From Neiella litorisoli (GTDB taxonomy: Bacteria; Pseudomonadota; Gammaproteobacteria; Enterobacterales; Neiellaceae), in the NCBI RefSeq assembly GCF_014773395.1, contig NZ_JACXAF010000033.1, forward strand, positions 1-54,793: a DNA stretch of 54,793 bases, in the 5' to 3' direction. The position numbers were made by a program, and so were the translations under genes. This document shows positions 16,607-30,320 of this stretch, one piece after another (position 1 is the stretch's first letter; each line of letters begins with the position of its first letter). The notes beneath the pieces were generated by a model that saw only the letters and a list, made by a program, of their open reading frames with translations, searched no databases and was not told the DNA's origin.

Positions 16607-18322
16607 CTAAATAAAATCCTTGGCCAGCAACGCCAAACAAGCCAACGCCAGAATGCCACTGAGTGATTTCCAGAAGAATACCGGGTCACGCTCGATTAAT
16701 GGCGCTGCTTCGTGGCGGTCGAGCAATTGTGGGTTTGGTTTATTCAAATCTTCAAGGAATTCAGAAAACGAGTCGGGACGGTTGTCGGCCACTGGTGAAC
16801 AAGCGCGCTCTAACGCTAAATCAATCCAGTTGGGCAAATCGGAGCGCACGGTTCGCATCGGCCGGTAGCGCCAAACACTAATATCATCGGGAATTTGGTA
16901 GCGGCTGGCGCCGGTTTTATAGGGTAATTGGCCGGCCAGCATTTCGTACATCACGACGGCTAACGAGAATAAATCGGCCTTAAACGTCGCGGTTTGATTT
17001 AGCAGATATTCGGGGGCAATGTAATCGGCAGAGCCTTGCGGTGTGGCATTCTTTTCATGGCCAAAATGCTCTTCTAATCCCGCCGCCTGTACCGTGCCAA
17101 AATCAATGAGTTTCACGTGGCCGTGAATGTCGATAATAATATTTTCTGGCTTAATATCGCGATGAATCATGTCGTTACGCTGTAATGCGCGCAGTGCTTT
17201 GACGGTTTCTCGAATAATATCGCGCACTTGGTTGAGTGATGGCCGTGGGTTATCGACCATCCATTGCCGTAAGTTCTGGCCCGGCAAATATTCACACAAG
17301 TGATAGGCAAATTTGCTGCCCTCTGGGCGAGCGTGCATCCGCATAATATTGGAGTGGTCGAGCGATTTGCCGATCCACTCTTCTTTGATAAAGCCTTCGA
17401 GATAACTCAGATCGTCATCAAAGTGAGCCGATGGTGCTTTTAGCGCAAACTGCTCGCCAGCGCTATTTTCAACCACATAAACATGGCTGCGGGTGCCGCT
17501 AAACAACACATGACGAATGGTTAACCCATCAATCTTCTGGCCGGGCTTCATCACTGGCGGAATGGCCAGCTCCATGGCTAATTTTTTGGCTTCGCTGAGG
17601 CCTGCTTCGGGCAGATCATCGACTCGTACCAATAGTGCTGAAATGTTGTCATCGGACCCTGCTTGCAACGCCTGACGGCACAAGGTTTCGCTCAGTTGCT
17701 CTAAGTCGCAATGGCGGGCATTGGATAGCTGATCGATCAGGTTCTGGTCGGAAGTGTGGTGATACAGGCCATCGGTGGCGAGTATATAAACATCGCCTTC
17801 TTGCATCTCAAATTGCTTGGTATCGAGCTCTAAGTGAGAGTCGATTCCCAAAGCGCGAGACAAGGATTCGGAGCCACCAAAAGGCGCGAGGTGATCGCGT
17901 GTTAGACAGCGAATCTTGCCATCTCGCAATCTTAGCAGGCGGCTGTCACCGACATGGAAAAACCAAGCTTGGCGACCCTTGCCGACGAATGCGGTAAAAG
18001 TGCAGACATAAGCTTGCGAACGTTCATTACGCTGGTTGTGGCTGAAAAACCAATGGTTCAGTGGCGAGATCACCGAGGCGGCTGATTTAGCCACGCTCCA
18101 CGCTGATTTGGTGGCGTAATAATCCTGAATAAACTGGGTGACTGCGGTTTGCGCCGCCACTTGCGATTGTTCGCTGACACTGACGCCGTCGGCAATCGCA
18201 GCGACCACGCCTTTACGATTGACTAAATGCGATGGCGGTACTTTGGCGGCAAAGGCATCTTGGTTGATGTCTTTATTACCCGCACAGGAGTAGCCACCTA
18301 GGGTCAGTTTCATTTGTTTCAT
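16607..18322 (-). CDS. Bifunctional PP2C phosphatase / Ser-Thr protein kinase
   Basis: A 571-residue fusion from the ATG at 18322; a second ATG at 18313 is also possible and neither has a strong ribosome site. Residues 8-235 are a PP2C phosphatase with the metal Asp in NKDINQD, IADGVS, LATDGLY and GSDDN. Residues 263-535 are a Hanks-type kinase with the ATP Lys in FALK, the catalytic HRDIKPEN and IDFG, and substrate loop GSADYIAPE. A C-terminal membrane helix (about 550-567) anchors it. Both active sites look intact. It is the last gene of the nitrate assimilation run; similar fusions sit beside nas/nir genes in Pseudomonas and some marine relatives. Confidence 0.9.
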   Translation of the reverse strand: MKQMKLTLGGYSCAGNKDINQDAFAAKVPPSHLVNRKGVVAAIADGVSVSEQSQVAAQTAVTQFIQDYYATKSAWSVAKSAASVISPLNHWFFSHNQRNERSQAYVCTFTAFVGKGRQAWFFHVGDSRLLRLRDGKIRCLTRDHLAPFGGSESLSRALGIDSHLELDTKQFEMQEGDVYILATDGLYHHTSDQNLIDQLSNARHCDLEQLSETLCRQALQAGSDDNISALLVRVDDLPEAGLSEAKKLAMELAIPPVMKPGQKIDGLTIRHVLFSGTRSHVYVVENSAGEQFALKAPSAHFDDDLSYLEGFIKEEWIGKSLDHSNIMRMHARPEGSKFAYHLCEYLPGQNLRQWMVDNPRPSLNQVRDIIRETVKALRALQRNDMIHRDIKPENIIIDIHGHVKLIDFGTVQAAGLEEHFGHEKNATPQGSADYIAPEYLLNQTATFKADLFSLAVVMYEMLAGQLPYKTGASRYQIPDDISVWRYRPMRTVRSDLPNWIDLALERACSPVADNRPDSFSEFLEDLNKPNPQLLDRHEAAPLIERDPVFFWKSLSGILALACLALLAKDFI

Positions 18323-18373
18323 CAGCAATTACGCTATATGCGACAGGGTATCTTTACCCTTAATAGTAAGAAG

Positions 18374-18463: not shown

Positions 18464-19933
18464 TTAGTTCACTTGAATCAGTTCAACCGTGCCGTCTTCG
18501 CGGACTTCGGCCATATGACCTTCTGGCTCTTCCATTAACAGCAAGCAGATGAAGCCAAGCACTGCGGTCGCGGCAATCACCAAGAAGAAGGTCGATGCGT
18601 CAACCATGCTGAAAATAGTCAGGTAAGTGACCGCACCAACGTTACCGTAAGCACCTGTCATACCAGCAATTTGGCCTGTGAGACGGCGTTTAATCAACGG
18701 CACTACGGCAAATACCGCACCTTCACCGGCTTGTACGAAGAACGAACACGCCATAGCACAAGCTACTGCTATCCAGATTGGCCAAGTGGCATCAATCAAG
18801 CTCATGGCAAAGTAACCTGCCGCTAAACCAGCCGTGAGGATAAGCAGGGTTTTCTTACGGCCAAATTTGTCTGAAATCAGACCGCCACCTGGGCGCGACA
18901 TCAGGTTCATAAAGGCATATGCCGATGCAACCAAGCCTGCGATAACCGGATCTAAGCCAAAGGTGTCAGCGAAGAACAACGGCAACATCGAGACCACCGC
19001 TAGCTCAGAGCCGAAGGTGGCAAAATACAGTACGTTTAATACTGCGACTTGCTTGAATTTGTACTGGTGCATCGGCTCCACAGGCTTAACAAAGATTTCT
19101 TTGTTGACGCTGTAGGCTTTGTAAGAGTCATAAAAGAACAGTGCAGTGAGGGCAATGTAAATACCGTAAGCGGCTTCCATGCCGATCAGTGACACGCCAT
19201 TTGGTGATAACTTCCACGTCAGCAGGGCTAGGGCAAAGTACATCGGTAGCTTCATCACGATCATGAACCAGAAATCGCCTTTGCTGGTCACTTCCATGCC
19301 GCCAATTTTCTTTGGACGGAAGTAGGTTGAGCCTTTCGGCGTATCTGACACCGTGTTGTAGTAGACAAAACCCCAGATAATGCTCAATACACCCGTGGTA
19401 GCTACCGCATAACGCCAGCCTTCGTCACCGCCATACCAAAGGGCGATGATGGGTAATAACATTGAGCCAGCAGCAGAACCGAAGTTACCCCAACCACCGT
19501 AAACGCCTTCTGCGGTGCCGAGTTCGTTGTGTGGGAACCACTCGGAAACCATGCGAATACCAATCACGAAGCCAGCACCGATGAAGCCCAGCAGCAAGCG
19601 CGATAATGCCGCCATCTCAAAGCTGTCGGCGAAAGCAAACATGAAACAAGGAATTGAACAGAGCACTAACAGCGCAGAGTAGGTTTTGCGAGGACCAAAG
19701 GCATCGGTCAACATGCCGATGATGATCCGAGCGGGAATCGTCAAGGCCACATTGAGGATCAACAGGGTTTTTACTTGGGCGCCGGTCAAGCCAAGGGTGT
19801 CACCAATGGCTTTGAGCAGTGGCGCATGGTTAAACCAAACGAAAAAGGTGATAAAGAAGGCGATCCAACTCATGTGTAGGATCTTCATTTTTCCTGTCAA
19901 TGAAAACAGGTTGAATTTAGTTGTGTTGTCCAT
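18464..19933 (-). CDS. narK: NarK/NasA-type nitrate transporter (MFS)
   Basis: A 489-residue major facilitator protein with about 12 membrane helices, bringing nitrate (and possibly nitrite) into the cytoplasm. The nitrate/nitrite porter signatures are visible as [14 protein letters not shown] and [15 protein letters not shown], and the MFS loop motif as [11 protein letters not shown]. Its position after nirBD, with no respiratory nitrate reductase in view, points to assimilation, so the name nasA would be equally fitting. AAGG upstream of the ATG is a modest ribosome site. The gap to nirD is 113 bp. Confidence 0.92.
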
Positions 19934-20046: not shown

Positions 20047-20376
20047 TTACGCCGCGATCTCGACCTGACCATCACTGACCCGAACCGGGTAGGTGGCGAT
20101 GGTGATCGATTCATCATCGAGGCAGACGCCGTCATTGAGGCGGAAGCGCTGCTTGAGCAGCGGCGAGGCAACATAGAGTTGGCCATCAACTTCGCCAATC
20201 AAGCCACGCGATAACACGCTGGCGTTGCCAAACGGGCAAATGTTGGAAATGGCGAATAAGTCGCCGCTACCGGCGACTTTGAAAATAGCGACGTGGTCTT
20301 CGCCGACCTTGGCGCAAATGCCAGTGTCTGGTACCAATACCGACTCATCGCAAACTGAAATCCAAGAATCACTCAT
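20047..20376 (-). CDS. nirD: Nitrite reductase (NADH) small subunit
   Basis: A 109-residue NirD, a Rieske-fold protein that partners NirB in reducing nitrite to ammonium. As usual in NirD, the Cys-His pairs that would hold a Rieske cluster are absent; only NICPFGNASVLSRG remains at the cluster loop. AGGAG precedes the ATG. It follows nirB by 27 bp in the same transcript. Confidence 0.95.
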   Translation of the reverse strand: MSDSWISVCDESVLVPDTGICAKVGEDHVAIFKVAGSGDLFAISNICPFGNASVLSRGLIGEVDGQLYVASPLLKQRFRLNDGVCLDDESITIATYPVRVSDGQVEIAA

Positions 20377-20403: not shown

Positions 20404-22950
20404 TTAGTCGACTAATTCAATAGCTGGAATGGCTTGGCCGCGTTTTTCTGCTTCGGTAGCAGGGCGACGTTGGCCACGCTCTTCAACATATGCCAGGTTG
20501 TTGTCGCCATCTTCTGAGTTGATGAAGTGGGCGAAACGCTTGAGGCGCTCTGGGCTTTCGATGGTTTTCTTCCACTCACATTCGTAAGTGTCGATCACGC
20601 GCAGCATGTCTTGCTCCAAGCTGTCGCAAATACCCAATTTGTCGTTGATGATGACGTCTTTGAGGTAGTCCAAACCGCCTTCGAGGTTTTCCATCCACAC
20701 CGAAGTACGCTGCAGGCGGTCGGCTGTATGGTTGTAGAACATGTAGAAACGGTCGATGTACTTGATCAGGGTTTCGTCATCCAAATCAGTGGCGAACAGA
20801 TCGGCGTGACGAGGGCGCATACCGCCGTTACCGCAGAGGTAGAGGTTCCAGCCTTTGTCGGTGGCAATGACGCCGACATCTTTCGATTGCGCTTCGGCAC
20901 ACTCACGGGTACAGCCGGAAACGGCCATTTTGACCTTGTGCGGGGTCCGCATGCCCTTGTAACGCATCTCTAGCAAAATCGCCATGGAGACTGAATCGAG
21001 CATGCCGTAACGGCACCAAGTGCTACCGACACAAGACTTCACCGTTCGCAGCGATTTACCATAGGCGTGGCCGGTTTCGAAACCAGCGTCAACCAGGCGT
21101 TTCCAAATGGCTGGTAATTCATGGAGCTGAGCGCCGAACATATCGACACGCTGACCACCAGTGAGTTTGGTGTAGAGGTTGTAATCGCGGGCAATTTCGC
21201 CTATTACGATTAAGCCTTCTGGGGTGACTTCACCACCCGCCATACGCGGTACAACCGAGTAGGTGCCGTCTTTTTGCATGTTGCCCAAGAACACGTCGTT
21301 AGTGTCTTGCAGTGGCAAGTGTTCATCTTTCAGAACATACTCGTTCCATTGGGTCGCCAGCATTGAGGCCACGGCAGGCTTACAGATCTCACAACCGTGA
21401 CCATGGCCGTGATCTTTCAGCAAATCTTGGAAGTTGGTGTATTTCTTCGAGCGGATGATGTCGAACAATTCTTGACGGCTGTAATCAAAGTGACCGCAGA
21501 TGTTGTTGTTGACTTCAACCCCCATTTTTTCCAGTTCACAATTCAGTACTTGGCCAACCATGGCAGCACAGCCACCACAACCCGTACCGGCACCGGTACA
21601 GGCTTTTAGGTCGGCAACGGTATGGTTACCCGCTTGAATGGATTCGATTAAGTCACCTTTGGTAACGTCAAGACAGGAACAAATTTGCGCCGCATCAGGC
21701 AGTGCTTCGACGCCCATGCCGCCGCCGGCTTCGCCGTCAGTGACCGGCAAGATCAGGGTTTCGGGGTTTGCTGGTAGGTCCATGCCAGTGAGCATAATTG
21801 GCAGCAGGGTGCCGTAGTCACTGGTGTCGCCCACCATCACTGCGCCCAACAATTTCTTATTGTCAGCGGATACAATCAAGCGCTTGTAAACCTGCTCGGC
21901 GCCATTGCTGTATACATAGCTGATACTGCCGGGGGTATTGCCGTGGGCATCGCCGATACTACCTACTTCAACGCCGAGCAGTTTCAGCTTGGTGCTCATA
22001 TCAGCACCTTCGAACGAGTCGTCACCACCGGTTATATGAGACACGGCCACTTTGGCCATGCTGTAACCAGGAGCGACCAGACCAAAGATCCGGTTATTCC
22101 AGAGAGCACACTCACCTATTGCATAGATGTCCGGATCTGAGGTCTGGCATTCGTTGTTAATGACGATACCGCCGCGCTCACCAATGGTGAGGTCGAACTG
22201 GCGCGCCAATTCATCTTGCGGACGTATACCGGCAGAAAACAGAATCATGTCGGTTTCTAAATGAGTACCGTCGGCAAATTCCATGCGGTAACGGCAGTCT
22301 TCACCGTCAGCAATGTTTTGGGTCGCTTTACCGGTATGCACTTGCACACCGAGCTCTTCAATTTTGGTACGTAGCAGTGAGCCGCCTGCTTCATCTAACT
22401 GGACTGCCATCAGGCGCGGAGCAAACTCGACAACATGTACTTCTAAGCCAAGGTTTTTCAGCGCATTTGCCGCTTCCAAACCGAGCAGGCCACCGCCAAC
22501 CACAACGCCAACACGGCTTTGTTTGGCTGATGCGGTCATGGCTTCTAAGTCTTCAATGGTGCGATAGACCAAACAATGCGGTTGGTCATTACCTGGGATT
22601 GGCGGCACAAACGGATAAGAGCCAGTCGCTAGCACCAGTTTGTCATAGGATTCGACTTCACCTTTTTCTGTGGTGATGGTCTTTGCTGCTTTATCAATGC
22701 CAGTGACTTTGTCATTTAGCAGAAAGCGAACGCCGCGCTCGTCATAGTATTGCGGCGTGGTCATTGCTAAGTCATCGGCGGTGCTGCCAGAGAAATAGGC
22801 ACTCAGTTGCACACGGTCATAGGCTAAGCGTGGTTCTTCGGAAAAGGTCACAATATCGAATTGCTCGCCTTGTGGATCATTCACTAAGGTATCGATGAAT
22901 TTGTGGCCGACCATGCCGTTACCGACAACGACGATCTTTTGCTTGCTCAT
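20404..22950 (-). CDS. nirB: Nitrite reductase (NADH) large subunit
   Basis: An 848-residue cytoplasmic flavo-siroheme enzyme that reduces nitrite to ammonium with NADH. Domains in order: FAD-binding (VVVGNGMVGHKF), NAD-binding (GVVVGGGLLGLEAA), a bacterioferredoxin-like [2Fe-2S] domain (CSCLDVTKGD and CTGAGTGCGGC), and the sulfite/nitrite reductase domain with four siroheme-[4Fe-4S] cysteines in CVGSTWC and CTRECAEAQ plus LYLCGNGG. All ligands are present. It is first in the operon behind a sigma-54 promoter with NtrC-type sites, which fits induction under nitrogen limitation. AGAGG lies just before the ATG. Confidence 0.97.
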   Translation of the reverse strand: MSKQKIVVVGNGMVGHKFIDTLVNDPQGEQFDIVTFSEEPRLAYDRVQLSAYFSGSTADDLAMTTPQYYDERGVRFLLNDKVTGIDKAAKTITTEKGEVESYDKLVLATGSYPFVPPIPGNDQPHCLVYRTIEDLEAMTASAKQSRVGVVVGGGLLGLEAANALKNLGLEVHVVEFAPRLMAVQLDEAGGSLLRTKIEELGVQVHTGKATQNIADGEDCRYRMEFADGTHLETDMILFSAGIRPQDELARQFDLTIGERGGIVINNECQTSDPDIYAIGECALWNNRIFGLVAPGYSMAKVAVSHITGGDDSFEGADMSTKLKLLGVEVGSIGDAHGNTPGSISYVYSNGAEQVYKRLIVSADNKKLLGAVMVGDTSDYGTLLPIMLTGMDLPANPETLILPVTDGEAGGGMGVEALPDAAQICSCLDVTKGDLIESIQAGNHTVADLKACTGAGTGCGGCAAMVGQVLNCELEKMGVEVNNNICGHFDYSRQELFDIIRSKKYTNFQDLLKDHGHGHGCEICKPAVASMLATQWNEYVLKDEHLPLQDTNDVFLGNMQKDGTYSVVPRMAGGEVTPEGLIVIGEIARDYNLYTKLTGGQRVDMFGAQLHELPAIWKRLVDAGFETGHAYGKSLRTVKSCVGSTWCRYGMLDSVSMAILLEMRYKGMRTPHKVKMAVSGCTRECAEAQSKDVGVIATDKGWNLYLCGNGGMRPRHADLFATDLDDETLIKYIDRFYMFYNHTADRLQRTSVWMENLEGGLDYLKDVIINDKLGICDSLEQDMLRVIDTYECEWKKTIESPERLKRFAHFINSEDGDNNLAYVEERGQRRPATEAEKRGQAIPAIELVD

Positions 22951-23120
22951 AGTTTGGCCTCTTGCGTCTGTATCTTGTTGTTTTGTGTGCGATGAAAGTT
23001 AGGTTGATTGGTAAGGCTTCCGACTCTGCAAGGGATGAGTAGTCGAAAGTGGTTTTGGTTACGTCGTTGGAACCGGCGGGTACTGAAATGGTGAATTTCA
23101 GTACGATTCGCACACACTTG
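22951..23120 (-). promoter_or_regulatory. Untranslated leader of the nirB operon with a strong hairpin
   Basis: Between the predicted start of transcription and the nirB ATG lie about 170 nt. Close to the 5' end is a perfect 10-bp stem GTACTGAAAT/ATTTCAGTAC with a 5-nt loop (23080-23104). Nitrate assimilation operons in Klebsiella, Pseudomonas and Azotobacter have structured leaders read by the NasR or NasT antiterminators. The usual six-base loop is not evident here and no clear terminator follows, so this is only a candidate. Confidence 0.45.
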
Positions 23121-23130
23121 TTATGGATTA

Positions 23131-23147
23131 AGCAAAACAGGTGCCAA
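23131..23147 (-). promoter_or_regulatory. Sigma-54 promoter of the nirBD-narK-kinase operon
   Basis: On the minus strand TTGGCACCTGTTTTGCT fits the consensus TGGCAC-N5-TTGCW. The invariant GG and GC are separated by exactly 10 nt, as sigma-54 requires. Confidence 0.82.
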
Positions 23148-23207
23148 ACTCATTGATATGCTTTTAATGTATTTAAAATGCTTTTATTTCAGAGTGTTGA
23201 TTATTGT

Positions 23208-23224
23208 TGCACCGAAGTGGTGAA
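23208..23224. promoter_or_regulatory. NtrC-type enhancer site 1
   Basis: TGCACCGAAGTGGTGAA matches the NtrC palindrome TGCACC-N5-GGTGCA at 11 of 12 positions. Its centre is about 95 bp upstream of the expected transcription start, the usual NtrC enhancer distance. Confidence 0.7.
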
Positions 23225-23255
23225 GGTTGCTGAGGTTGTTTGATGAGATTTGTTT

Positions 23256-23317
23256 GGTGCAAATGTTCTGTTGTGGTGCATTGTGCTGGTGAGTACGAGC
23301 TGCACCGATTTGGATCA
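23256..23317. promoter_or_regulatory. Further NtrC-type half-sites and site 2
   Basis: Two GGTGCA half-sites (23256-23261, 23275-23280) precede TGCACCGATTTGGATCA (23301-23317), which has one perfect half and one 4-of-6 half. Repeated sites in this zone support a clustered NtrC enhancer. Confidence 0.5.
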
Positions 23318-23337
23318 TGGTTTGACAGGCAGAAATA

Positions 23338-23367
23338 ATAAAGCCGTGGGCTGAGCCACGGCTTTAT
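23338..23367 (-). terminator. Terminator of the DUF3718 gene
   Basis: A 12-bp perfect stem ATAAAGCCGTGG/CCACGGCTTTAT with a 6-nt loop lies 25 bp beyond the DUF3718 stop and insulates the nirB enhancer region from upstream transcription. Confidence 0.85.
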
Positions 23368-23392
23368 CATCAATATGTTGTTTCAGTTTGGC

Positions 23393-23719
23393 TTACAGGC
23401 TAGCCAGTTCCTGAATTTCAACGCGACCTTGTTGCAGTGAGCGGATGAAGTTAGCGGTGTGGTGCGCGCCGTTTTCAGCTGCGAAGGTACCGATGTCTTC
23501 GCCATCGCAAACCACGTTTTCAGCAACATCTTTTAGGCTCAAGCGATAGCTTTTGACGATTTGCTTGAAGCTCATGGTTCTGTTGCTCAAGCTGCTGTAG
23601 CAAACATCTTGCAATGCTTTTTCTACGACTGGATCCATAGCAGCTTTAGTCGGAGTAGAAAGTAGCAATGTGAAAGAAGTGACCAAGCCAACCAAAGTAG
23701 TGATAGTTAATTTTTTCAT
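23393..23719 (-). CDS. DUF3718 family small secreted protein
   Basis: A 108-residue protein with a signal peptide cut near TKA-A (residue 26-27). The rest matches the DUF3718 family, seen in SYRLSLKDVAENVVCDGEDI and the paired cysteines in DVCYSS and VVCDG, which could form a disulfide in the periplasm. AGGAAAAGG precedes the ATG. Family function is unknown; members are found mainly in Alteromonadales and Vibrio. It is a single gene with its own terminator. Confidence 0.8.
   Translation of the reverse strand: MKKLTITTLVGLVTSFTLLLSTPTKAAMDPVVEKALQDVCYSSLSNRTMSFKQIVKSYRLSLKDVAENVVCDGEDIGTFAAENGAHHTANFIRSLQQGRVEIQELASL

Positions 23720-24420: not shown

Positions 24421-30320
<5,900 letters not shown>

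Follow-up and report, generated by a model that had tools for sequence, protein, structure and literature searches.

How the nirB operon of Neiella litorisoli is switched on, and whether the RNA ahead of nirB carries a second layer of control, is the question raised by the 54,793-nucleotide stretch of DNA analysed here (the window). An original prediction, made from the letters of the window, had placed a sigma-54 promoter, NtrC-type sites and a 10-bp leader hairpin before nirB. On the minus strand the operon consists of nirB, nirD, the gene of a NarK transporter and that of a PP2C-kinase fusion, in this order (Table 1), and no nitrate reductase gene was seen within it. Elsewhere in the genome, which is of the Neiella type and comprises 4.32 Mb in 46 contigs (G000), a napA-like gene (C23) and a nasB-nasA-like pair (C25) were present. 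The nasBA-like operon has a sigma-54-like site, TTGGTACGGCGCTTGCA, an NtrC-like site and a very short leader (L116:4150-4384). Upstream on the nirB strand of the window lie a gene for a 470-aa protein with glutamate synthase small-subunit domains (24421-25833, minus strand) and a 1487-aa open frame (25857-30320, minus strand), which, judged from its length and place, may encode the large subunit of glutamate synthase. A strong symmetric hairpin at 23335-23370, with 15-nt arms that are 93% complementary, is found 3' of a DUF3718 gene and is probably the terminator of that gene.

Three further genomes entered most of the comparisons. G001 and G002 belong to the same genus as the window's genome, and their 900 nt upstream of nirB are identical to loci L037 (N. 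holothuriorum) and L036 (Neiella marina), respectively. G004 (nirB leader L009) represents a sister genus of the same family, which we take to be Echinimonadaceae.

Table 1. Coordinates of the features of the nirB locus in the window.
Feature	Position	Strand	Basis
PP2C phosphatase - Ser/Thr kinase fusion protein	16607..18328	-	Pfam PF13672 and PF00069
NarK-family nitrate/nitrite transporter	18464..19933	-	TIGR00886, 332.5 bits, above cut-off
nirD, small subunit (Rieske_2)	20047..20376	-	Pfam PF13806, 1.3e-35
nirB, NADH-nitrite reductase large subunit, first gene of the operon	20404..22950	-	NCBIfam TIGR02374 (1134.6 bits), NF011565 (1391.2 bits); Pfam
nirB leader RNA, predicted start near 23120	22951..23120	-	12 nt after the GC element; fold z
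nirB Shine-Dalgarno AAGAGG, predicted mostly unpaired	22958..22963	-	sequence and pairing probabilities
P0, 3' strand, UCGCACACA	22984..22992	-	predicted fold and three-species alignment
H3, 9-bp outer stem CUUUCGACU/AGUCGGAAG, sequence varies between species	23017..23049	-	3 both-side pair changes in 3 Neiella species
H2, ANTAR-type hairpin GGUUC C[AACGAC]G UAACC; loop 23063-23068, closing pair 23069/23062	23057..23074	-	loop rule as described in PMC7496416 and PMC3369931
H1, 10-bp hairpin GTACTGAAAT/ATTTCAGTAC, 5-nt loop, non-canonical	23080..23104	-	sequence and fold
P0, 5' strand of the closing helix, UGUGUGCGA	23108..23116	-	9 bp with 22984-22992; weakly supported alone
Sigma-54 promoter TGGCACCTGTTTTGCT	23131..23146	-	exact consensus; kept in 4/4 leaders
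NtrC-type palindrome TTCACCACTTCGGTGCA, TTCACC-N5-GGTGCA, 11/12	23208..23224	-	best site in the window
Weak NtrC-type site, 9/12 (3 mismatches)	23264..23280	-	window scan and sites of relatives
NtrC-type site, 10/12	23301..23317	-	sole 2-mismatch site in the window; counterparts in the other two Neiella genomes

Sigma-54 promoters follow the consensus TGGCAC-N5-TTGCW with GG-N10-GC, and sites upstream of the -24 element were scored against the NtrC palindrome consensus. The predicted promoter TGGCACCTGTTTTGCT has its GG at 23145-23144 and its GC at 23133-23132, with a spacing of exactly 10, as had been claimed. An exact TGGCACNNNNNTTGCW is rare: it occurs once in the window, at this site, and five times in the 4.32-Mb genome. 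With at most one mismatch, 3 matches were obtained in the window against 4.2 expected, and 231 in the genome against 117 for the reversed control pattern. The best NtrC-type palindrome is the sole such site with at most one mismatch in the 54.8 kb. It lies 71 bp upstream of the -24 GG, two weaker sites are found farther upstream, and its centre is ~96 bp upstream of the predicted start; both its quality and its distance agree with the near-perfect palindrome announced at about 95 bp, and the two weaker sites with those announced at 23256-23317. As the NtrC-type matches with at most three mismatches number 29 in the window against 33.7 expected, all that stands out is that the two best sites lie close together. 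NtrC-type sites with one to three mismatches stand at matching places in the three Neiella genomes, the counterpart of the best site scoring 10/12 in N. marina and 11/12 in N. holothuriorum; G004 has sites of 9/12 (three mismatches) only.

The promoter itself is kept in all four leaders, as TGGCACCTGTTTTGC in the three Neiella genomes and as TGGCCTCCTTTTTGC in G004. Of 80 nirB loci from GTDB, 26 contain the pattern TGGY(A/C)N7TGC in the 320 nt that precede nirB, and none of the 80 contains it on the opposite strand; the 80 include a locus with only 34 nt upstream (L081), and some loci that lack the pattern have another gene directly upstream (e.g. L038, L040). The nirB promoter combines the consensus and its GG-N10-GC spacing with palindrome(s) upstream of -24, as is expected of the sigma-54 class. 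The quality of the sites, the promoter in four of four leaders and the matching NtrC-type sites in three Neiella genomes support the predicted induction well, and nirB is very probably under NtrC/sigma-54 control in response to nitrogen limitation. This promoter part of the locus is real and ordinary.

The structure of the leader was investigated by RNA folding. In the predicted fold, the helix P0 closes a structure with three hairpins, H1, H2 (a small one) and H3. It had an energy of -40.4 kcal/mol against -24.2 kcal/mol for shuffles, and 0 of 200 shuffles were as good. The fold z was -5.1 to -5.3 for the window, -2.75 for N. marina, -1.5 for N. holothuriorum and -1.0 for G004, and is thus weak in two of the four leaders (L037 and L009). 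Leaders from genomes without an ANTAR protein gave 0.48 (L013), -0.18 (L052), -0.85 (L064) and 0.88 (L073). When the three Neiella species were aligned, 96% of the cells paired, against 25-44% when the alignment was slid. Three pairs had changed on both sides, all of them in H3, a number reached by 33 of 500 shuffles, and the covariation score was equalled by 77 of 500. P0 is the weakest helix; in the four species, 106, 156, 572 and 735 out of 2000 shuffles equalled its duplex, and P0 alone is not significant. Its GUGUGC/GCACAC pairing persists in G004 with the 3' strand relocated.

The 10-bp hairpin near the RNA 5' end exists and corresponds to H1. Within Neiella it is largely conserved; in G004 its sequence was replaced and the hairpin kept, with six of nine hand-compared pairs changed on both sides. 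These changes also bear on the notion that the palindrome works as DNA, as the site of some regulator, and has no role in the RNA. A repeat that is a perfect 10-bp inverted one, lies close 3' of the start and is largely kept within the genus would suit such a site, but the retention of the hairpin under a different sequence in G004 makes this notion highly improbable. As a control element H1 did not hold up: it lacks a hexaloop with A1 and G4, and the canonical loop is found in H2.

The loop bound by ANTAR proteins is described as a hexaloop closed by a C-G pair and having A as its first (A1) and G as its fourth (G4) base (NasR SELEX, PMC7496416; EutV mutants, PMC3369931). H2 lies directly downstream of H1, outside the stretch covered by the original prediction (23080-23317), and has A1, G4 and a C-G closed stem in all four genomes. 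It is identical across the three Neiella genomes. In G004 it reads C[AAUGAU]G and retains A1, G4, the closing pair and the GGUU/AACC stem, with H1 and H3 around it differing. The distance of this hexaloop head from the predicted start is 50-51 nt in the four genomes. A head of the quality of H2 arose in 65 of 4000 dinucleotide shuffles of the leader, and a head with an AAYGRY loop in 0.1% of 5000. H2-like sequences with at most three mismatches were found at 27 places of the genome against 52 for the reversed control; H2 of the window is the only exact match, and one place (C2:51972) has two mismatches. The loop AACGAC recurs in other Alteromonadales, members of the same order, in terminator-bearing ANTAR arrays beside nasT (L131, L173 and L174). 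It also occurs in Psychrosphaera sp. F3M07, whose nirB leader has two canonical heads and whose genome has an ANTAR protein. Rfam at gathering score returned one tRNA and nothing else from the window, and a search of 22900-23400 with E values up to 5 gave one low-scoring match on the other strand.

The genome that carries this leader encodes one ANTAR protein, a NasT-like protein of 213 aa with receiver-like and ANTAR parts. On C10 its gene is followed by that of an NMT1_2-family protein and then by a uroporphyrinogen-methyltransferase-like gene. Family models above cut-off were PF03861 (ANTAR) for nasT and PF13379 (NMT1_2) for the nasS-like and nrtA-like genes; no other name-giving family model exceeded the cut-off for nasT, nasS, nrtA, nasA, nasB, napA or the methyltransferase, and these names are a reading from domain, sequence and place. 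The NasT-like protein and its NasS-like neighbour lend support to the guess of a second control layer run by an antiterminator-like factor. The loop rule, the conservation of the hairpin and the presence of NasT suggest that NasT binds H2, and it probably acts through it. H2, not H1, is the candidate NasT site and the conserved hairpin.

H2 could also be a relic, with nirB under NtrC/sigma-54 alone and a leader structure in which NasT has no role. The genome's own nasBA-like operon, which gave no ANTAR head in the head scan, and Vibrio nirB leaders such as L052, L064 and L073 do have a sigma-54-like site and no head, and the nirB leader is missing a second hairpin and a terminator. Against this stand the retention of H2 while H1 and H3 were rebuilt, the loop changes in G004 that spare A1 and G4, the constant distance of the head from the start, and the lack of a head in G005, which is without an ANTAR protein. 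We consider a relic improbable.

The distribution of the leader among relatives was determined with a covariance model built from the three Neiella leaders, which was searched against 394 genomes of the order with stricter filters, by which weak matches may be lost. Ten genomes matched. The sources of the model, G000, G001 and G002, had E values below 1e-36 and G004 had 3e-5, while the other six ranged from 0.24 to 0.6; the leader thus fell below 1e-4 in four of the 394 genomes, three of which are close relatives. Within the family it recurs in three of the four other genomes with an ANTAR protein. The fourth (G006) is 60% complete, and its sole nirB match, partial and with 57% identity, has no head. 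In G005, of the same family, both head and leader are absent. Among other genomes with ANTAR proteins, one 4-pair head was found at -77 of nirB in G036 and one 6-pair head at -265 in G056. No head preceded nirB in G017, which has a NasT-like protein, or the nirB loci seen in G049 and G011, where one of the two G049 matches yielded no locus. The window's genome also contains a second nirB (G000:C23:87328-89862, L034) that is 63% identical; the head scan found no ANTAR head in the 330 nt upstream of it, and none was present in the 200 nt given to the shuffle test of heads.

Canonical ANTAR leaders have two hexaloop hairpins in tandem, the second of which overlaps an intrinsic terminator, and the nirB leader was examined for both features. 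Among A1/G4 loops with at least four pairs, the window leader contains H2 and a weak head, CUUGC[AGAGUC]GGAAG at 23028, which is not common to the other three leaders. H2 was the only such loop in N. marina and N. holothuriorum, and G004 has H2 and a U-A closed one. In a relaxed search (at least three contiguous pairs, with A1 or G4 enough), the four nirB leaders had no further hexaloop in common. A dual-head scan of whole loci produced 16 matches on the minus strand and 15 on the plus strand, and therefore only heads within leaders were used. No intrinsic terminator was detected in the window leader by either of two scans. With one and the same script, the terminator test was positive for nrtA in 6/6 genomes and for nirB in 1/6; the positive nirB leader (L036) has a 10-bp hairpin with only a weak UUCCAUUU tail. 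G005, a seventh nrtA locus with neither ANTAR protein nor head, was left out of this test. The two-head nirB leaders of Psychrosphaera and G012 likewise had no U-tract terminator by this script. Within the same cells, nrtA therefore looks like attenuation and nirB does not.

Ordinary NasT attenuation at nirB, in which H3 or an element near it forms a terminator that is weak or poor in U and P2 has degenerated, both having escaped recognition, has two observations in its favour: the weak P2-like head at 23028 would exclude H3 in the window, and L036 has the hairpin and tail just described. The window leader is nevertheless free of terminators in both scans, the P2-like head is missing in three of the four genomes, and the relaxed search offers no replacement; we regard this as quite unlikely. 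Two defining ANTAR-motif features are missing from the nirB leader, with its one conserved head and no terminator beneath it, and it is not filed as a standard member for this reason. If it constitutes a new variant, as was proposed for the hairpin lacking the usual loop, this would be as a leader with a single hexaloop and without an intrinsic terminator.

A covariance model of three-hexaloop arrays from other Alteromonadales matched 0/7 family genomes, with up to 150 first-look candidates scored per genome, and the leaders were therefore scanned by hand, which revealed single-loop nrtA and nasT leaders. The arrays themselves, three tandem canonical hexaloop hairpins downstream of a nasT-like gene, were present in 6 of 40 ANTAR-neighbourhood loci (L131:1732-1815, L169:1783-1871, L174:1747-1833 and L176:1753-1839 on the plus strand; L160:1066-1175 and L173:1176-1282 on the minus strand). 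Their third hairpin is at a U-tract terminator, the next gene reads like one for a substrate-binding protein, and they have three hairpins where the published ANTAR leaders, as described in the accessible texts, have two. The nrtA leader (C8; L191-L194) has a sigma-54-like promoter and a variable first hairpin, followed by GAGC[AAAGGC]GCUC, whose loop and 3' side lie within a 14-pair terminator arm before a U tract in 4/4 genomes; in the window's genome, this sole good hairpin of the leader overlaps the terminator. Its head is 60-61 nt from the predicted start in the four genomes. A very weak G-U closed loop, GAG[AGCGCC]UUU, occurs in the 3' arm of the terminator in 4/4 genomes and speaks against strict singleness in nrtA; it is probably a by-product of terminator complementarity. 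A P1-like candidate for a second hexaloop in the genome's own first nrtA hairpin, GAUUU[AUCGAU]GGAUC, was rejected, being absent from the other three genomes.

Similarly, the nasT leader (C10) has a sigma-54-like promoter and then a hairpin, AAUGC[AAAGGC]GCAUU, that abuts the presumed ribosome site in 4/4 genomes and reads AAUGC[AAUGAA]GCAUU in G004. This single hairpin is seen at loci L001 (reverse complement), L132 (reverse complement), L133 and L134; with the relaxed search, no additional hexaloop was shared by all four nasT leaders. Its distance from the predicted start varies from 43 to 58 nt. With the hairpin beside the presumed ribosome site and behind a sigma-54-like promoter, autoregulation by NasT is possible. 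Heads arose in 144 of 4000 shuffles of the own nrtA leader and in 73 of 4000 of the own nasT leader. Both the nirB and the nrtA head stand behind a freely varying first hairpin at a constant distance from the predicted sigma-54 start. Speculatively, the NasT regulon of Neiella and its sister genus might run on single good hexaloops in three settings: terminator exclusion at nrtA, a place beside the ribosome site at nasT (autoregulation), and a terminator-less, closed multibranch leader at nirB, in which NasT would block Rho-dependent termination. We put this wider scheme forward as a rather unlikely one.

For the nirB-nirD-narK-kinase operon, the reading that we favour, with moderate confidence, is a two-input switch that combines a start by NtrC/sigma-54 with the action of nitrate-released NasT on a single-hexaloop leader, independent of a terminator. 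Under nitrogen limitation phosphorylated NtrC would occupy the palindrome(s) and sigma-54 polymerase would start near 23120, a step to which the sequence points strongly. Nitrate or nitrite would then free NasT from NasS, as homology suggests, and NasT would bind H2 at its canonical ANTAR loop, ~52-57 nt from the RNA 5' end. Since H2 is the only conserved canonical hexaloop and no terminator overlaps it, NasT would most likely promote elongation or the survival of the message without involving a U-tract terminator; it might oppose Rho, protect the RNA or affect translation. Our guess is that NasT stabilises the folded leader (P0, H1, H2 and H3) against Rho or nucleases, which would act on the C-rich, G-poor stretch before the start codon. 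The affinity of NasR is reported as ~1 uM with two hexaloops and 12 uM with a single hairpin (PMC7496416). With one hairpin bound ~12x more weakly, NasT would have to be abundant, to be helped by a second RNA or to bind in another way for a single site to work.

The stretch before nirB has a C content of 0.28-0.34 and a G content of 0.06-0.10. The DNA upstream of the promoter has 0.23-0.28 C and 0.12-0.15 G (0.28 C and 0.12 G in the window), and as the bias of C over G is thus also present in untranscribed DNA, it is weak evidence for Rho. That Rho is what NasT opposes at nirB is a tentative and somewhat unlikely proposal.

Alternatively, NasT may control the translation or stability of nirB RNA, the fold gating the ribosome site or shielding the 5' end without any termination. 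Through P0 the very 5' end of the RNA would be paired to nucleotides that precede the Shine-Dalgarno by 20-30 nt, and the single nasT hairpin directly abuts its own presumed Shine-Dalgarno. For actinobacteria, ANTAR motifs have been described at ribosome sites (PMC8164766), and such a role was suggested for terminator-less ANTAR matches in general (PMC3369931). On the other hand, ~110 nt separate H2 from the start codon, and support for P0 is weak. Most of the nirB Shine-Dalgarno is predicted to be free in the window and in L036; in L037 it is paired, and in L009 the picture is mixed. A model in which it is sequestered was rejected, because in two of these four leaders it stays largely free. 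Control of translation or stability by NasT is doubtful.

The neighbouring hairpin H2 would make the case more interesting than first stated, as it points to one-good-hexaloop NasT leaders in four genomes, one of these leaders without a terminator. The accessible open-licence literature yielded neither a single-hexaloop NasT leader nor a study of nitrate control in Neiella. Genome searches for ANTAR targets required two hairpins and partly also a terminator, according to PMC3369931 and PMC8164766; should a single hairpin suffice for NasT, whole regulons go undetected in such searches, and nature offers a system in which to test why an ANTAR dimer requires two loops. With a terminator at nrtA and none at nirB in the same cell, a comparison of the two leaders is well suited to uncovering a second NasT mechanism. 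The lack of a terminator is by itself no novelty, since dual-hairpin matches without terminators were noted already in 2012 (PMC3369931).

Of the known systems, Klebsiella oxytoca nasF/NasR shares with nirB the nitrate-induced ANTAR control of a nitrate-assimilation operon, predicted for nirB, and the C-G closed A1/G4 hexaloop (PMC7496416, PMC3369936). As described there, nasF has two hexaloop hairpins, P1 and P2, and P2 excludes an intrinsic terminator, whereas nirB has one conserved hexaloop and no terminator. The NasT-NasS leaders of Paracoccus and Bradyrhizobium (nasA, nosR) involve the same sensor-antiterminator pair, and nasT itself is reported to be NtrC-controlled in Paracoccus (PMC5424462). 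They differ in that antitermination at a terminator is described there and Paracoccus nasA has two hairpins, HI and HII; the Bradyrhizobium study allows other mechanisms for targets without a clear hairpin (PMC6759348). Enterococcus faecalis EutV follows the same A1/G4 loop rule on a small stem, but both of its hairpins are reported to be needed, with a fixed linker (PMC3369931, PMC8934654), and nirB has one that is conserved. The actinobacterial ANTAR RNAs resemble nirB in that the motif is mostly without a terminator; they are described as dual stem-loops, many of them over the ribosome site or start codon (PMC8164766), while nirB has one hairpin far upstream.
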